Below the pieces are notes generated by a model, which had not been told where the DNA came from, searched no databases, and saw only the letters and a program-made list of their open reading frames with translations. The position numbers were made by a program, and so were the translations under genes. From positions 1 to 20,121 of IMG/VR virus record IMGVR_UViG_3300005915_000172: a stretch of 20,121 nt of DNA; one strand, given 5' to 3'. Within the stretch, counting starts at the first letter, position 1, and every line of letters begins with the position of its first letter. This DNA is from a virus. Positions 1,084-20,121 of the stretch are shown piece after piece.

Positions 1084-1833
1084 ATGGCAAAAATAAAAAT
1101 GAAAGGGGAAATCAAACTTGATGTAATTAAGCCCCACCCGAAAAATCCACGTATTATTTCTGCTGAACAAATCGTAAAACTTGGAAAGTCAATAAAGGAT
1201 TTTGAAGATATGATGGAAGTCCGGGGAATTGTTGTCGATGAAAACAACATCATAATCGGGGGAAACCAGAGGTTTGCTGCACTGAAAGAAAATGGATATG
1301 AAACCATACCCGGCAAATGGGTAACAAAGGTTACAGGTTGGTCAGAAGAACGCAAGCATGAGTTTATGATTAAAGACAATGCCCCTGTTAGTGGTGAATG
1401 GGATTTTGAACTATTGGAAGATTGGGATTGGGAAGAATTGGAAGGGTGGGGACTTGAAATGCATGAATTAACTGAAACATCGAAACTTAGTAAATTAGAA
1501 TTTGACAGTATATATTTTGAGCCAAAAGAAAAACCTGAAATAAATTTAATAGACTGTATTAATTTAGAAAAATATAATGATAAAATAAAGATTATTGAAG
1601 ATTCTAAATTATCAGAAGATACAGAACAAATAATGAAAATATTTTGTCAAAGATTCATAAAAATAGATTTTGAAAATGTAGCAAATTATTATTATTTTAA
1701 TGCAACAGACGAAGAAAAGAAAATAATTGAACGGCTTCGTTTGGTTCTTTGTGATAATGGTGTTAATGGTTTTATCGAAGATGATATATTGAGAATACAT
1801 AAGCAAATAGAAGGATGGGAACTAAACAATTAA
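1084..1833 (+). CDS. ParB N-terminal domain protein with a distinct C-terminal domain
   Basis: Residues 8-100 have the ParB/Srx-like fold signature: HPKNPR at 18-23 and GGNQRFAAL at 59-67, the counterpart of the ParB GERR box. A W/E/D-rich segment (about 100-130, IKDNAPVSGEWDFELL) follows, typical of phage ParB-domain proteins linked to DNA modification. ParB-family boxes bind CTP or act as nucleases; which applies here is unknown. The C-terminal part (about 149-245) is a separate domain with FENVANYYYF at 196-205. I associate such domains, from memory, with phage ParB proteins encoded beside TAGT-type genes. Base composition falls sharply inside the gene, near residue 134. The 3' end overlaps the glycosyltransferase gene by 19 bases. 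A chromosome-partition role is unlikely. Confidence 0.8.
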   Translation: MAKIKMKGEIKLDVIKPHPKNPRIISAEQIVKLGKSIKDFEDMMEVRGIVVDENNIIIGGNQRFAALKENGYETIPGKWVTKVTGWSEERKHEFMIKDNAPVSGEWDFELLEDWDWEELEGWGLEMHELTETSKLSKLEFDSIYFEPKEKPEINLIDCINLEKYNDKIKIIEDSKLSEDTEQIMKIFCQRFIKIDFENVANYYYFNATDEEKKIIERLRLVLCDNGVNGFIEDDILRIHKQIEGWELNN

Positions 1834-2738
1834 TAGATATTTTTATACCGAGTTATCATAGATGGGCTAACTTGAAAACAGTTAATTACTTTTTGAGAAT
1901 AGGATGGAATCCTAAAAAGATTCATGTATTTATAGATGATGCAGCAGATGATATTTTAGAATATAAGAGAATAAGTCAAAGAAAAGGATTTAATCTTTAT
2001 GTTTTTGATATGGAAGAGGCAAGGCGTAGGTTTGATTATATACACAGAGCGAGTATATCAAGAAGAAGCGCAGGACAAGCAAGGAATATGTTTTATGATA
2101 AAGCGAAGGAGTTGGGTATTGATATTTATATAGTACAGGATGATGATACAAGTAGGTATCAAATAAAAAGGAATGGTGGTTATATAAGATTGGCAACTTT
2201 TGATGATATAAATACAGTTTTTTCAGCGATTAAAGAATTTATGTATAAACAAAAAATCGGGTTATTTGGTGTAAGTCAAGCTGGTGATTTCATAGGTGGT
2301 GAAAATAAAAAACTACTTAGAAACAAAGTAATGAATACTACGTTTATATTAACAAAATATATGTACCGGGGTGAACGTGGTGTACAAGACGATGATACAA
2401 GCCAATTTACAGGAGTAATGAATGAAGGTCTTTTTACAGGTAGTATTGGGGATGGGTTAGTATTAAAACAGGTTCAGTCGGCAACAGCACCCGGAGGCTT
2501 GACAGACCTATATAATGAATGTAAGTTATTGAATAAGGCTTTAATTTGTCCGATTCAATTTCCGAGTAGCATACAAGCTGAAAGACAAAAACAAAACGGT
2601 GGAAGATTGCATCATAGGATAAACAGCAGATATTTATATCCAAAATTAATAAAAGTAAAAGATATTAGCAATATTGCATGGGACACATATCCAGAAGATA
2701 TACCGTTTACGAATGAACCAAAAAGAAGTCATAATTGA
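1815..2738 (+). CDS. TAGT-like (TET-associated glycosyltransferase-type) GT-A fold protein
   Basis: The first strand is LIDIFIPSYHRWANL (residues 6-20), the nucleotide-sugar-binding start of GT-A enzymes. VFIDDAADD follows at 38-46, then the metal-binding DDD (109-111) in IYIVQDDDTSRY. A second QDDDTS at 191-196 lies where GT-A enzymes often carry a second acidic motif. A conserved-looking C-terminal block (FPSSIQAERQKQNGG, 249-263) follows. This pattern matches my recollection of the TAGT family, proposed to glycosylate oxidised or hydroxylated bases in phage DNA. No base hydroxylase is in the window. The start at 1815 overlaps the ParB gene and places the first strand at the N-terminus as expected. 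Composition is A/T-rich with many ATA and AGA codons, unlike the structural genes. A glycosyltransferase acting on another substrate is possible. Confidence 0.65.
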   Translation: MGTKQLIDIFIPSYHRWANLKTVNYFLRIGWNPKKIHVFIDDAADDILEYKRISQRKGFNLYVFDMEEARRRFDYIHRASISRRSAGQARNMFYDKAKELGIDIYIVQDDDTSRYQIKRNGGYIRLATFDDINTVFSAIKEFMYKQKIGLFGVSQAGDFIGGENKKLLRNKVMNTTFILTKYMYRGERGVQDDDTSQFTGVMNEGLFTGSIGDGLVLKQVQSATAPGGLTDLYNECKLLNKALICPIQFPSSIQAERQKQNGGRLHHRINSRYLYPKLIKVKDISNIAWDTYPEDIPFTNEPKRSHN

Positions 2739-2766: not shown

Positions 2767-3177
2767 ATGGAAAAGAACGCCAATTTAACAGGAAAAGGGT
2801 GGCAGCCGGGGCAGTCAGGCAATCCAAATGGAAGACCAAAATCATTTGGTACACTGACTAAGACATTAGCTAAATTTATAGAGACAGACGGCTCAATGAT
2901 AATAGACAATGTACGGGAGGTTGACGCAACAGGAAAGGACACAGGAAAGGTATTTGTCCGGGCAAAGGTGAACATCCCAAAAAAGGAAATGATAATATTG
3001 GCGGCTGTCAAAAAAGCGTTAAAAGGTGACATGAAAGCAATCAATTTCATCTTTGACAGGATAGACGGTAAAGCGGTCCAGCCAGTTGAAAATACAGAGG
3101 TCAATACAGGCGGTTTGGGCTTTTACGAATCTTTTATGTTATCACAGAATGGAGATAAAATTACGCTCGAAGATTGA
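2767..3177 (+). CDS. terS: probable terminase small subunit (DUF5681-type)
   Basis: Residues 11-24 read GWQPGQSGNPNGRP, the hallmark of DUF5681 proteins that sit directly before phage large terminases. The rest is helical and basic, ending in FIFDRIDGKAVQP (about 97-109), another typical feature of this group. It would bind phage DNA at the packaging site and deliver it to the large subunit. At 136 residues it is of usual size. Its 3' end overlaps the large subunit start by 29 bases, supporting the pairing. The DNA-binding role is inferred from position and family, not shown by a clear helix-turn-helix. Confidence 0.75.
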   Translation: MEKNANLTGKGWQPGQSGNPNGRPKSFGTLTKTLAKFIETDGSMIIDNVREVDATGKDTGKVFVRAKVNIPKKEMIILAAVKKALKGDMKAINFIFDRIDGKAVQPVENTEVNTGGLGFYESFMLSQNGDKITLED

Positions 3178-4720
3178 ATATAACAACTATCGGTTAGGAC
3201 GGGCATTGAGAAAGGACTGGAATGTTTTCATCCGTGATGTATGCCATGTTCATTTAGATCGTGACCAACAAAGGATTGTATCTTCGGTTCAATTCAATTC
3301 AAGGACATCGGTGAGGAGCGGAACAGCAAGGGGGAAAGACTTTGCGGCTGCGTGGGCATGTTTTTGTTTCTTTGCTTTGACACCAGAATTCACAAGAAAT
3401 AAAGTAGGGGCCCTTCAATTAACTGGGAACACAAAAGTTGCAATGACCGCCCCAACTGACAGGCAGATTAAAAACATCATGTTCCCCGAAATTTCAAAAA
3501 TCTTTAAAACAGTAAAAACACGGGCCCCCGGAATGTGCTATCCTGTTGGTATGCGAGCCGTTGGGTATGATATCCGTACCCGGTGGGAAGAGTGGTTCTT
3601 AACGGGATTTAAGGCAGATGACAATAATATTGAGGCGTGGTCAGGCTTCCATGCGGCAAATGTAATGTTCGCGGTCACAGAGGCTTCGGGGATGAATGAA
3701 AAAGTTTTTGAAACAATCGAAGGTAACTTACAAGGGAACAGCCGTATCTTATTGGTTTTTAACCCGAACAAACCAGTCGGCTACGCTGCGAAGTCAACCA
3801 AATTAGAAGGATGGACAAAATTCAAACTAAGCAGTATTGATTCTCCAAATGTGACAGAGAAGAAAATAATAATACCGGGACAGGTCGATTATGCGTGGGT
3901 AAAAGACAAAGTCAAGACCCAATCAGCAGCCCTTGAAAAGTCTCAGGTAATAATTGAAAAAAACGACTTTGAATTCGAAGATAACTGGTACCGTCCAACG
4001 GATTGGTTCAGGATTAAAGTGTTGGGGGAATTTCCTGAAACTTCAACGGATACGTTAATCCCTTTGTCATGGATTGAAGCAGCTGAAAAAAGGTGGGCCA
4101 TATTCCATCATGAAAAAAGGTTAATTAATTCTCCATTAAGGTTGGGGGTTGACGTTGCAGGTATGGGGAACGATGACAGCGTTTTAATTTCAAGGTATGG
4201 AGATTTTGTTTCAGAGATAAAAAACTACAATGCCGGGGGAGTTGCAAACCACATGCAGACAGCTGGAGAAACAAAGACCAGGTTAAAAAAAGGCGGTGAC
4301 GCTGCACTGATTGACACTATTGGAGAAGGGGCAGGGGTTTACAGCCGTTTACAGGAATTAAACCAGAATGTTTACAGCGTGAAATCCAATGCAAGCGCAA
4401 AGGGTTTGGTTGACATGACAAAAGAATATACCTTTGGTAACCTTAGGGATTATTTATTTTGGGCAATTAGGGATTGGTTGAACCCTGTGTATAACAGTGG
4501 ATCTTGTTTGCCAAAGAATGATAAATTACGGGAAGAGTTAACAGAAACGAAATGGGGTTATGACAGTCAAGGAAGACCGACAATTGAAAAGAAAGACGGT
4601 TTGAAAAAGAGGTTGGGACGTTCACCGGATTGTGCAGACGCACTGGCATTGTCGTTTTATCCCGAATCGAAGATGAAAGGGTTTGGAATACCAATAAGCA
4701 GGATTTCAGGGATTTATTAA
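3149..4720 (+). CDS. terL: terminase large subunit (packaging ATPase and nuclease)
   Basis: The motor that pumps DNA into the prohead. The ATPase part has a P-loop at residues 58-64 (GTARGKD), a Walker B-like VMFAVTE at 172-178, and ILLVFNPNKP (about 200-209) as the coupling motif. The nuclease part has an RNase H-like acid set: D334 in LGVDVAG, D388 in ALIDTIGEG, and DCAD ending at D496. Length 523 aa is normal. I chose ATG 3149 rather than the in-frame ATG at 3086 because the extra 21 residues lie wholly inside terS and look unlike a terminase N-terminus. Oddities: aspartate replaces the usual Ser/Thr after the P-loop lysine, and threonine replaces the Walker B aspartate, leaving the glutamate. 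Confidence 0.92.
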   Translation: MEIKLRSKIEYNNYRLGRALRKDWNVFIRDVCHVHLDRDQQRIVSSVQFNSRTSVRSGTARGKDFAAAWACFCFFALTPEFTRNKVGALQLTGNTKVAMTAPTDRQIKNIMFPEISKIFKTVKTRAPGMCYPVGMRAVGYDIRTRWEEWFLTGFKADDNNIEAWSGFHAANVMFAVTEASGMNEKVFETIEGNLQGNSRILLVFNPNKPVGYAAKSTKLEGWTKFKLSSIDSPNVTEKKIIIPGQVDYAWVKDKVKTQSAALEKSQVIIEKNDFEFEDNWYRPTDWFRIKVLGEFPETSTDTLIPLSWIEAAEKRWAIFHHEKRLINSPLRLGVDVAGMGNDDSVLISRYGDFVSEIKNYNAGGVANHMQTAGETKTRLKKGGDAALIDTIGEGAGVYSRLQELNQNVYSVKSNASAKGLVDMTKEYTFGNLRDYLFWAIRDWLNPVYNSGSCLPKNDKLREELTETKWGYDSQGRPTIEKKDGLKKRLGRSPDCADALALSFYPESKMKGFGIPISRISGIY

Positions 4721-16638: not shown

Positions 16639-19600
16639 ATGAACTGGAAATTAGATAGCATAGCATTTGAAGATTACGGGGTTTCAGTCTCGAAAGCAAC
16701 CGGGGTGTTGGATTTACCTAAGATTGTAATTCCTAAACATAACTGGTTGGATGAAGACGGTCTGGAATTTTCCGCCACGGTTGCAGATTACAAAAATAAA
16801 GAACGTTCAATTAGGCTATCATGTTACATAGTTGCCGGGGATATTGACGACTTGGACACACAGGTTGCAGCATTTTGGGCGGCTATCAGTGCGACAGGAT
16901 TAAGGGAATTATCATGCGATTATATTACAACTCCAATAGAATGTTTTTTGAAAACAAAAGTTATCGCAAAACGGATCACAGGTTATGCAGACGATAAGCA
17001 AGTTGCGACATTTATCATAAATTTGACAGTGGCTGGGGACGGTGATTATGACTTGGTGAATATTGTCCGTACAACTTCTTTGAATGTAATTGCAACGGTT
17101 CAATGTAAGGACTTACAGATCCAAAAGTCTTTACAGGGTAAAATGTCATTGACAATGTCTTTCGAATCCAATGATGTTATTGATATACGGTACGGAGATT
17201 TTATTCAACTGTTATATGATGGAAACGGTTTTGACAGGTTCATCCTGGAAACCGAACCATCGTTTACGAAAAAAAGTACTAACAAGTATTTATATACACT
17301 TAAATTTAACCATCAATTTAATTATTTAGCCGTAACGGCTTTTTTGTTTGGAGGGGAGGGAGATTTTTATTTGTATGCAGATTTTGAAACGGTTGTTGAT
17401 TTGATAATTACAAACAATACCAGGACGTTCTCAAAATTTGTAAAAGGGACTGTAGTTTCCACGGAAAAGCGAAACCATAAATTTAGCGATGAAAACTGTT
17501 TGGAAGTTTTGAGGAGAATGGCAAAAGAGTATGAATTGGAATACGAATTTGTTCATCAAATACCAGCATATAAATATTTAATAAACGTCGCGGAAGAGGT
17601 TGCAAATACCATCGGGGTTACATTGGAATACGGAAGTGGTAACGGGCAATATGAATTACAAAGGAGCGAACGTATCGAAGATGAATTTTGCACCCGGTTA
17701 TTTGCTTTTGGAGCTGATAAAAATTTGCGCCCGGATTATCGTTCTGGATTAAAAAGGTTATCATTTGCAAATAACCCGTTGGAAAATAATATTGCCTCGT
17801 ATGGATTAAAAGAGAAAATTGTTTTTTTTGATGAGGAGTTTCCACAAAGGACTTCCACGGTTACAGCATACTATCAAGTTTTACCGGACGATTTAACCGA
17901 CAAACAAAAACAGTCGTATGCAAATGGCATTTATAGGATAGAGGACACTACTTTGTACAATGCCACGCCGTCATTGGATTTTGATTTGAATGATTATTTA
18001 CTAGAAGGTGTACCCGCTAAAATAAGAATGAAAAGCGGTAATTTAGCAGGATATGAATTCGAGATATGGAAGTACGACCATGCTAATCAGTTTATATATA
18101 TTATTACCCAAAAGAATGAACGGGGAGAACAGTTCCCAAATACTGATTCTCAAATTGCGATAGGAGATGATTATACCTTGGTTGACATTGACCAGCCAGC
18201 TAGTTATATTTCCACGGCAGAGACAGCATTAGAGGCGGCTGCAACAGCATATTTGACGGCACAAAGTACTCCACAATTTACTTACAAATGTACAGTGGAC
18301 CCGGTTCACGTTATTGACAATGATTTGTATTTTGAAGTCGGTGACAGGGTTACGCTGATTGATTCTGATTATGGTATTAATGGGTTGTTTCGGATTAGTG
18401 CTTTGCGGTACAAAGGTTACACAGGGGAATACGAATTGATGTTTTCGCCAAAAGCGGTTGAAGGTTCGATACATGATTTGGACACGCGTGTAAAAAGTAC
18501 TGAAAGGGCAATTGGTGATACTAAACAAAACACGGTTGAAAAATCAAGCAAAAGTGCTGAAACGACAGGTGAATTAAAAAACAGGATTTTAGAACCTAAC
18601 GATGATCTTCTTGGAGCGGACAGGGTGGTAAGGAACGAATCCATCGACCCACGGATGATGTCTTATGATTCCGGGATGCCACAAATCAGTATCAAGAATG
18701 CACTGGTGGAAGTAAATGTCGCAGGGGATGAAGACGATATTATAATATCAGCTGGTCATTTGGTGATGCACAACTTTGCAGACAATACAACAAACAGGTG
18801 GGCAATTCAGGAAATAAAAGACGCGGCGGGAGATTACGACCCGACACGTACATGGGTAATTTCAGAAACCCCTTTTACCCTGGCAACTTCAAACGGATAT
18901 TGGATTTATGCAAAGCTTACAATGTCCACAGGGAGTACAGTTTGTGTGATTGAAGTTTTCGAGGACCACAAAGAAATCAAGTTGGATATTGCGACAGGAT
19001 ATTTAAAATACAAATTAGGGTACATTTCAGCCCCGGTAAGTGGTGTACGTTATGGGAGTATGCTATGGGGAAATCTAAAACAACCATTGCAAGTAAATTC
19101 AGATTGGGACGCTGTGACCGGTATAGCTGAAATCCTGAATAAGCCAACGGCATACATTTTGCCATTAGCAACTAGTACCATTAGGGGAGGGATTAAAATA
19201 GGCTATTCACCTTCAGCGAATGATTTTGCTTTGGTGCTAACCAGTGAAAAGGCACACGTAATTATACCTACTGCGACTGATTTAGTAAGAGGGATAGCAA
19301 CGTTTCATGCAGATTATTTTGTTGTTTCCAGCGGGGCGGTTGCAATTAAAACTGGTGGGATAATATTCTCAAATTTAAACGACGATGTTATTTCTGGTCA
19401 AACAGCTTTAACCGCTGGTTTGGCGAGTACGGATGAATTAATGGTATCGGATGGCGGCGTTTTAAAGAAAATGGATGTTTCTGTCTTGATTACAGGGCTT
19501 ACAGCTTTGACAACAGGATTGGTAAGTACGGATGAATTGATGGTAAACGATAATGGTACATTGAAACGGATGGACATTTCTGTTTTAAAAGCATTATTTG

Positions 19601-20121
19601 ATACTTACTATAACGATTATTCGTTACCAGCGGCAACGTCAACGGTTCGAGGCGGGATTAAAATCGGCTTTACTTCCAGCGGGTTAAATTTTGCCGTATT
19701 GTTGTCTGCTGAAAAAGCGTATGTTACTTTGGTATATGCCACTGACACTTTAAAAGGAATTGCGTCTTTTGCCACTGCAAATTTTTTGGTAACTGGAGGG
19801 GCGGTTGAAATTAAAACAGGTGGTGTCGTTGCTGCAAATTTAAACACAGCGTTAATTTCGGGCTTAACAGCTTTGACCACTGGATTGCTTTCAACGGATG
19901 AATTAATGGTATCAGACGGCGGTACATTAAAGAGAATGGATATTTCCGTATTAAAAGCATATATGCAAGCCGGACTGACATTTAGCGCAGTTCACGATGC
20001 TGTAACAATAGGAACGGCAAACGGGCTTTCATTATCAACGCAGCAATTAAGTTTAGCTGCAGCAGGCGCATCTACGACAGGGGCTTTGACTTCGACAGAT
20101 TGGAATACTTTTAACGAAAAA
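16639..20121 (+). CDS. large tail-tip protein: Dit-like, Tal/hub-like and fibre parts; 3' end missing
   Basis: The frame runs open for 1161 codons to the window edge, so the true product is longer. Residues 1-145 look like a distal tail protein: the opening WKLDSIAFEDYGVSVSKA and a strand-rich body. Residues about 150-600 resemble the Tal/hub group (phage tail endopeptidase-type fold, without visible catalytic residues), including ATVQCKDLQIQKSLQGKMSL, ENCLEVLRRMAKEYELEYEF and RPDYRSGLKRLSF. A charged, coiled-coil-like linker (about 605-645) follows. Residues 655-840 are strand-rich and may form a surface-binding domain. From 844 a 155-residue repeat region begins, and the window ends in a STTGALTSTDWNTFNEK segment typical of phage tail fibres. 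It would cap the tube, open the tail and touch the receptor. Confidence 0.85.
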   Translation, partial: MNWKLDSIAFEDYGVSVSKATGVLDLPKIVIPKHNWLDEDGLEFSATVADYKNKERSIRLSCYIVAGDIDDLDTQVAAFWAAISATGLRELSCDYITTPIECFLKTKVIAKRITGYADDKQVATFIINLTVAGDGDYDLVNIVRTTSLNVIATVQCKDLQIQKSLQGKMSLTMSFESNDVIDIRYGDFIQLLYDGNGFDRFILETEPSFTKKSTNKYLYTLKFNHQFNYLAVTAFLFGGEGDFYLYADFETVVDLIITNNTRTFSKFVKGTVVSTEKRNHKFSDENCLEVLRRMAKEYELEYEFVHQIPAYKYLINVAEEVANTIGVTLEYGSGNGQYELQRSERIEDEFCTRLFAFGADKNLRPDYRSGLKRLSFANNPLENNIASYGLKEKIVFFDEEFPQRTSTVTAYYQVLPDDLTDKQKQSYANGIYRIEDTTLYNATPSLDFDLNDYLLEGVPAKIRMKSGNLAGYEFEIWKYDHANQFIYIITQKNERGEQFPNTDSQIAIGDDYTLVDIDQPASYISTAETALEAAATAYLTAQSTPQFTYKCTVDPVHVIDNDLYFEVGDRVTLIDSDYGINGLFRISALRYKGYTGEYELMFSPKAVEGSIHDLDTRVKSTERAIGDTKQNTVEKSSKSAETTGELKNRILEPNDDLLGADRVVRNESIDPRMMSYDSGMPQISIKNALVEVNVAGDEDDIIISAGHLVMHNFADNTTNRWAIQEIKDAAGDYDPTRTWVISETPFTLATSNGYWIYAKLTMSTGSTVCVIEVFEDHKEIKLDIATGYLKYKLGYISAPVSGVRYGSMLWGNLKQPLQVNSDWDAVTGIAEILNKPTAYILPLATSTIRGGIKIGYSPSANDFALVLTSEKAHVIIPTATDLVRGIATFHADYFVVSSGAVAIKTGGIIFSNLNDDVISGQTALTAGLASTDELMVSDGGVLKKMDVSVLITGLTALTTGLVSTDELMVNDNGTLKRMDISVLKALFDTYYNDYSLPAATSTVRGGIKIGFTSSGLNFAVLLSAEKAYVTLVYATDTLKGIASFATANFLVTGGAVEIKTGGVVAANLNTALISGLTALTTGLLSTDELMVSDGGTLKRMDISVLKAYMQAGLTFSAVHDAVTIGTANGLSLSTQQLSLAAAGASTTGALTSTDWNTFNEK
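19168..19965 (+). repeat. 155-residue-period coding repeat in the fibre region
   Basis: The first unit runs from residue 844 to 998 (19168-19632) and the second begins at 999 (19633). Each opens with ATST(I/V)RGGIKIG and a 78-residue strand-rich block. DNA differs at many third positions, so the duplication is old rather than recent. The second unit lacks the second copy of the 33-residue element and diverges after 19965. Confidence 0.85.
19402..19965 (+). repeat. 33-residue nested repeat, three copies
   Basis: Copies lie at 19402-19500, 19501-19599 and 19867-19965 (residues 922, 955 and 1077 onward). The core is STDELMV-D-G-LK-MD-SVL. Copies two and three agree at 28 of 33 residues by eye; copies one and three at 24 of 33. 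The first two are directly adjacent. Confidence 0.85.

Follow-up and report, generated by a model that had tools for sequence, protein, structure and literature searches.

Two overlapping phage genes, one for a ParB-fold protein with an extra C-terminal domain (CTD) and one for a glycosyltransferase of the TAGT family, probably make up a self-contained cassette for the glycosylation of phage DNA, in which the ParB-CTD protein would deliver the TAGT to DNA. The pair lies in a 20,121-base piece of a virus contig (the window), where its two open reading frames (ORFs) occupy positions 1084-1833 and 1815-2738 and share exactly 19 bases (1815-1833), the overlap given in the earlier note. The TAGT ORF sits immediately 5' of a TerS candidate, which is followed by TerL and then a portal gene, and the placement of the pair directly before the terminase genes is thus confirmed. 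The features of this region are as follows.

1084-1833, + strand: ParB-N + CTD protein, 249 aa (phrog_620, E 5e-24; AF2 pLDDT 86, with ParB/Noc/Srx fold matches)
1084-1503, + strand: ParB-N domain (ParB/Srx NTP-binding fold), an exchangeable module, from module comparison
1258-1272, + strand: Box-II-like motif GGNQR, residues 59-63 (R63 in 121/131 relatives)
1504-1830, + strand: CTD, helical, coupled to TAGT (GC 24% vs 38% in ParB-N)
1815-2738, + strand: TAGT (PF20691) GT-A glycosyltransferase, 307 aa (Pfam, phrog_842, AF2 model)
2139-2147, + strand: DDD (DxD) motif, residues 109-111 (invariant in 131/131)
2610-2615, + strand: HH, residues 266-267, candidate third metal ligand (130/131, gap in one)
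2767-3177, + strand: TerS candidate (DUF5681, E 6e-14), a neighbour outside the cassette
about 3149-4720, + strand: terminase large subunit (phrog_2, E 1e-27), a neighbour

Elsewhere in the window, a long tail-type ORF (16639-20121) leaves the contig end and contains repeated LTTGLxSTDELMVxDxGTLKRMDISVLKA-like units.

The product of the 1815-2738 ORF matches the Pfam TAGT family PF20691 well above its cut-off (E 1.1e-10, 42.2 bits vs 27.5) and also phrog_842. Its AF2 model (pTM 0.80) matches GT-A enzymes, with 31 matches at E<=1e-3 and the DDD motif intact, and both the TAGT identity and the GT-A fold proposed from the letters alone are therefore borne out. The closest solved folds are mostly of glycosyltransferases acting on proteins or small molecules, collagen glycosyltransferases being among the best, a likeness that holds at fold level only. 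Besides the DDD motif, R90, K171 and D194 are invariant among 131 relatives, and H266-H267 may supply the third metal ligand by analogy with GT-A enzymes generally. A phmmer match to 4-hydroxybenzoyl-CoA thioesterase was rejected as spurious, since it covers 27 residues only. Pfam finds no methyltransferase domain within 1084-2738.

For the upstream protein the Pfam ParB_N match is weak (E 3e-4, 21.1 bits, below the 26.3 cut-off). Its assignment comes from phrog_620, which matches across residues 9-219, from a sequence match of its family profile to CTP-bound ParB chains (E 9e-10), and from the AF2 model, the first ~110 residues of which match ParB, Noc, KorB-type and sulfiredoxin structures. 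Both the ParB/Srx fold and the Box-II arginine are present in the window protein and in the family; changing this arginine to alanine in ParB-fold proteins abolishes NTP binding (PMC12704722). Against TIGR00180 (full-length ParB with HTH), the measure used for a canonical ParABS protein, the window ParB scores 14.9 bits with a cut-off of 58.45, and in the named phages no ParA is annotated adjoining the pair. The residues invariant among the 131 relatives are N21, G60, N99, R190, A200, E216 and D224, the last four of which lie in the CTD. This helical, conserved domain, the extra C-terminal domain of the earlier note, has no Pfam match and, as an AF2 model, no fold match in the PDB. The drop in GC at the ParB-N/CTD boundary recurs in 98% of the window's subfamily, so low GC is a property of the module and not a sign of recent arrival in the window phage; recent transfer was rejected as its explanation.

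Coupling of the two genes extends far beyond this contig. An IMG/VR scan gave 64 relatives of TAGT, GTDB genomes gave 11 and a phage collection 28-36 records, and further IMG/VR scans gave 80 and 31 loci belonging to two other TAGT subfamilies. At loci with upstream DNA, the TAGT gene is preceded by a gene for ParB and/or the CTD in 58/58, 95/95 and 29/29 cases in the three subfamilies, so the coupling noticed in the window is upheld by the survey. The partner gene may encode ParB-CTD, the CTD by itself or, in the third subfamily, a ParB without a recognisable CTD, and its ORF overlaps that of the TAGT in 131/135 pairs. With the CTD of phage jlb1 as query, 28 of 50,697 phage records matched, all of them TAGT-bearing. 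Such counts in large sets partly reflect shared descent, an effect that a test on 58 divergent lineages reduces but does not remove; in these, TAGT was present in 57 and ParB-CTD in 54, the next gene being a TerL cluster (21), and no third conserved gene was found within about 8 kb of the pair.

The pair occurs in phages of Bacteroidota, Bacillota, Pseudomonadota and Actinomycetota and in one haloarchaeal virus, and named carriers include Porphyromonas phage005, L. gasseri jlb1, E. coli vB_EcoS-613R10, L. delbrueckii c5, haloarchaeal HHTV-2 and Nocardia NTR1. Three loci that seemed to have no partner (L072, L075 and L083) proved to be gene-calling artefacts, with ParB-CTD upstream in each, and the apparent lack of a partner in Vibrio jumbo phages was likewise rejected, as the 139-aa gene upstream is the CTD. 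In the third, very divergent subfamily (TAGT of 238 aa; L088:4977-6289 and L189-L215), a ParB of ~200 aa without a recognisable CTD is always upstream. Two tandem TAGT genes follow one ParB in L075:641-2331, and L130:5601-8111 holds an apparent tandem CTD-TAGT-CTD-TAGT array; either may be a two-sugar system.

Comparison of the modules indicates that the key partner of the TAGT is the CTD, more than the ParB domain, as judged from sequence co-variation. Pairwise identities of CTD and TAGT correlate with r 0.957, against 0.564 for ParB-N and TAGT, although the two values lie closer together inside subfamilies (0.72 vs 0.71, and 0.86 vs 0.69). No decoupled CTD/TAGT pairs were seen in the pairwise identity comparison. 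A similar ParB-N accompanies a TAGT of a different subfamily in 472 pairs, and the reverse holds in 78. The tree requires six or more switches between the ParB-bearing and the CTD-only form, two of which depend on loci later found to be divergent or truncated: L140 was rejected as CTD-only because a divergent ParB-N is present, and L170 is truncated where its contig stops.

ParB-N also occurs with a different kind of enzyme. L. gasseri phage jlb1 aligns by blastn with L. johnsonii prophage Lj771 on both sides of a swapped segment ahead of the terminase. In this segment jlb1 encodes the C-terminal part of its ParB and the TAGT, where Lj771 has an N6_N4 DNA methyltransferase instead; the ParB-N reading frame of Lj771 seems interrupted. 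Related ParB-N sequences (71-57% identical) lie inside annotated DNA methylase genes of L. helveticus and streptococcal phages, and Pfam identifies ParB-N fused to N6_N4_Mtase in L098, L101 and L104. In L101:4989-7226 an intein with a LAGLIDADG domain interrupts such a fusion. At L103:1667-3012 a gene of the PAPS-reductase family lies 5' of a ParB-N gene, followed by TerS/TerL, and may encode another DNA-modifying partner.

Characterised systems offer several points of comparison. The nearest relative of known function is the TAGT of phages T2 and T6 (beta-glucosyl-HMC alpha-glucosyltransferase), for which a GT-A fold has been modelled and which adds a second glucose onto alpha-glucosylated cytosine (glucosyl-hydroxymethylcytosine) in phage DNA (PMC13216743). 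T6 Ggt falls in PF20691, above the cut-off, and so shares its Pfam family with the cassette TAGT, yet the two are very distant in the tree. Phage ParB-fold proteins fused to DNA methyltransferases have been described, and one ParB-SAM-methyltransferase fusion binds ATP (PMC12704722); their ParB-N is homologous to that of the cassette, but there the methyltransferase is fused, whereas here ParB-N carries the CTD and the glycosyltransferase is separate. DpdB is a ParB-like ATPase that partners DpdA in the insertion of preQ0 into DNA (PMC12839542). The likeness to Dpd is that of a ParB-like protein paired with an enzyme that modifies (here presumably) DNA bases; the difference is that DpdA swaps the base for preQ0, while the cassette has no TGT and matches the DpdB model below cut-off (E 0.04). 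It is because the T2/T6 TAGT acts on DNA, and because of the ParB-methyltransferase and DpdB precedents, that we favour DNA glycosylation as the function of the pair.

Under DNA glycosylation, ParB-N would bind NTP and load on or select DNA as an exchangeable targeting part. The CTD would bind, hold or activate the co-translated TAGT, as strict co-occurrence and co-variation suggest, and the TAGT would move a sugar from a nucleotide sugar onto a DNA base, a role to which both its family and the methyltransferase swap point. Glycosylation would probably take place late in infection, just ahead of packaging, and the sugar would most likely protect the DNA against host nucleases.

Which base would accept the sugar is a separate matter. 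To our knowledge, characterised DNA glycosyltransferases all need a hydroxymethyl- or hydroxy-pyrimidine, and known TAGT substrates bear a hydroxyl that unmodified bases do not have. In T6, ggt adjoins dCMP hydroxymethylase and uvsX with no ParB or CTD annotated alongside, whereas the cassette has ParB-CTD and no hydroxymethylase. It is accordingly possible, if somewhat unlikely, that an unrecognised or host enzyme hydroxylates the base, and that the pair belongs to a conventional TAGT pathway one partner of which is missing. This possibility concerns the acceptor alone and is compatible with a DNA-glycosylation cassette, but the lack of a third conserved gene in the 58 lineages argues against it, as do searches for the enzymes themselves. 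TAGT systems were reportedly linked to TET/JBP by Iyer et al. in 2013, and the cassette has the TAGT family in common with them; TET/JBP, however, was found in 0/50 distinct carrier records, which included eight cellular or host genomes and many fragmentary virus records and were searched without a TET-bearing phage as control. T-even-type glucosylation needs a phage dCMP hydroxymethylase, but a search for TS-fold enzymes (PF00303, a fold that takes in dCMP hydroxymethylase) found none in any phage record with ParB; the one match above cut-off is in a Vibrio jumbo phage, whose cassette is CTD-only. In Bacteroides heparinolyticus, carrier of L081, a second, partial thymidylate-synthase-fold match (contig C34 of G013, 16656-17252, E 5e-17) occurs in addition to the normal enzyme.

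The earlier note had remarked that no hydroxylase gene was in view, and had allowed that one might lie elsewhere in the genome. Its absence from the 20,121-base window stands, but a location simply elsewhere does not, as the enzyme is absent too from complete phages with the pair. Less likely than a missing partner is a reaction without any preceding hydroxylation, in which ParB-CTD and TAGT would together attach the sugar straight to a standard DNA base, or ParB itself would prime the acceptor.

Copies of the pair in E. coli make the cassette accessible. Among 5,426 complete E. coli genomes, a megablast search with the E. coli pair found some match in 1,559, with at least 80% covered in 885. 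In the Rac prophage of K-12 MG1655 (L220 4959-5222), ynaK is a truncated N-terminal ParB remnant, and the CTD and TAGT are gone. Strain WR3-3 retains both ORFs open and overlapping, with a full-length ParB ORF of 263 aa (L217 4959-5750); its annotation marks ynaK as incomplete, a label that apparently arises from the short K-12 form being taken as the reference. The cassette is thus directly testable, since 885 E. coli genomes carry a full or nearly full copy and K-12 only the ynaK remnant.

NCBI names the E. coli TAGT copy a GREB1-related protein, and GREB1 is reportedly a protein glycosyltransferase. Together with the collagen and other protein glycosyltransferases among the best fold matches, and with the terminases that mostly adjoin ParB-containing cassettes, this name would suit an enzyme whose target is a protein (the terminase, the capsid or some host factor) and whose adaptor is ParB-CTD. 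We consider a protein target unlikely, as Lj771 has a DNA methyltransferase in the same slot, the characterised phage member of PF20691 modifies DNA, and the adjoining terminases are many and unrelated. The first large downstream ORF belongs to one TerL family in 44/72 loci and further TerL families occur elsewhere; the terminases beside cassettes are mostly unlike one another, even where the cassettes are close relatives. Few of these neighbours match the window TerL, at 24-26%, and no relatives of it were confirmed in viral contigs.

ParB-containing cassettes usually precede terminase genes, while CTD-only copies lie away from them, among replication genes, which again speaks against a protein target such as terminase. 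CTD-only cassettes have DNA polymerase A and a sliding-clamp-like protein nearby in L126, a DnaB-like helicase and a DNA methylase in L130, a DNA methylase in L162, a primosomal protein in L160 and a primase/helicase in L071. In L179:3385-4236 a radical-SAM gene is found immediately 5' of a CTD-only TAGT cassette. The labelling of DNA for packaging, raised in the earlier note, is weakened by this variety of terminases and by the ParB-less versions in replication modules: although the usual place immediately 5' of TerS/TerL and the site specificity possible in ParB proteins would allow ParB to recognise a pac/cos-like site that TAGT marks for the cognate terminase, it is very improbable given that closely related cassettes stand beside unrelated terminases, that L. 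delbrueckii phage c5, annotated with a cos site, carries the cassette, and that CTD-only copies are distant from terminase genes.

In the literature covered we found no description of a ParB paired with a glycosyltransferase; Iyer et al. 2013 lay outside that coverage and might mention the pair. Solitary TAGTs, without alpha-GT or beta-GT, have been found in 288/753 phage genomes, where they are unexplained and regarded as probably novel transferases (PMC13216743, 2026). That survey does not mention ParB, and its solitary set probably includes the ParB-coupled class. Solitary TAGTs of the PMC13216743 type would thereby gain a constant partner, a two-gene unit and a methyltransferase swap, and the E. 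coli prophage copies offer an immediate place to measure the chemistry. If no hydroxylase is needed, the cassette would represent a new route to glycosylated DNA, and direct glycosylation, if true, would be an undescribed DNA modification chemistry across phages of bacteria and archaea.
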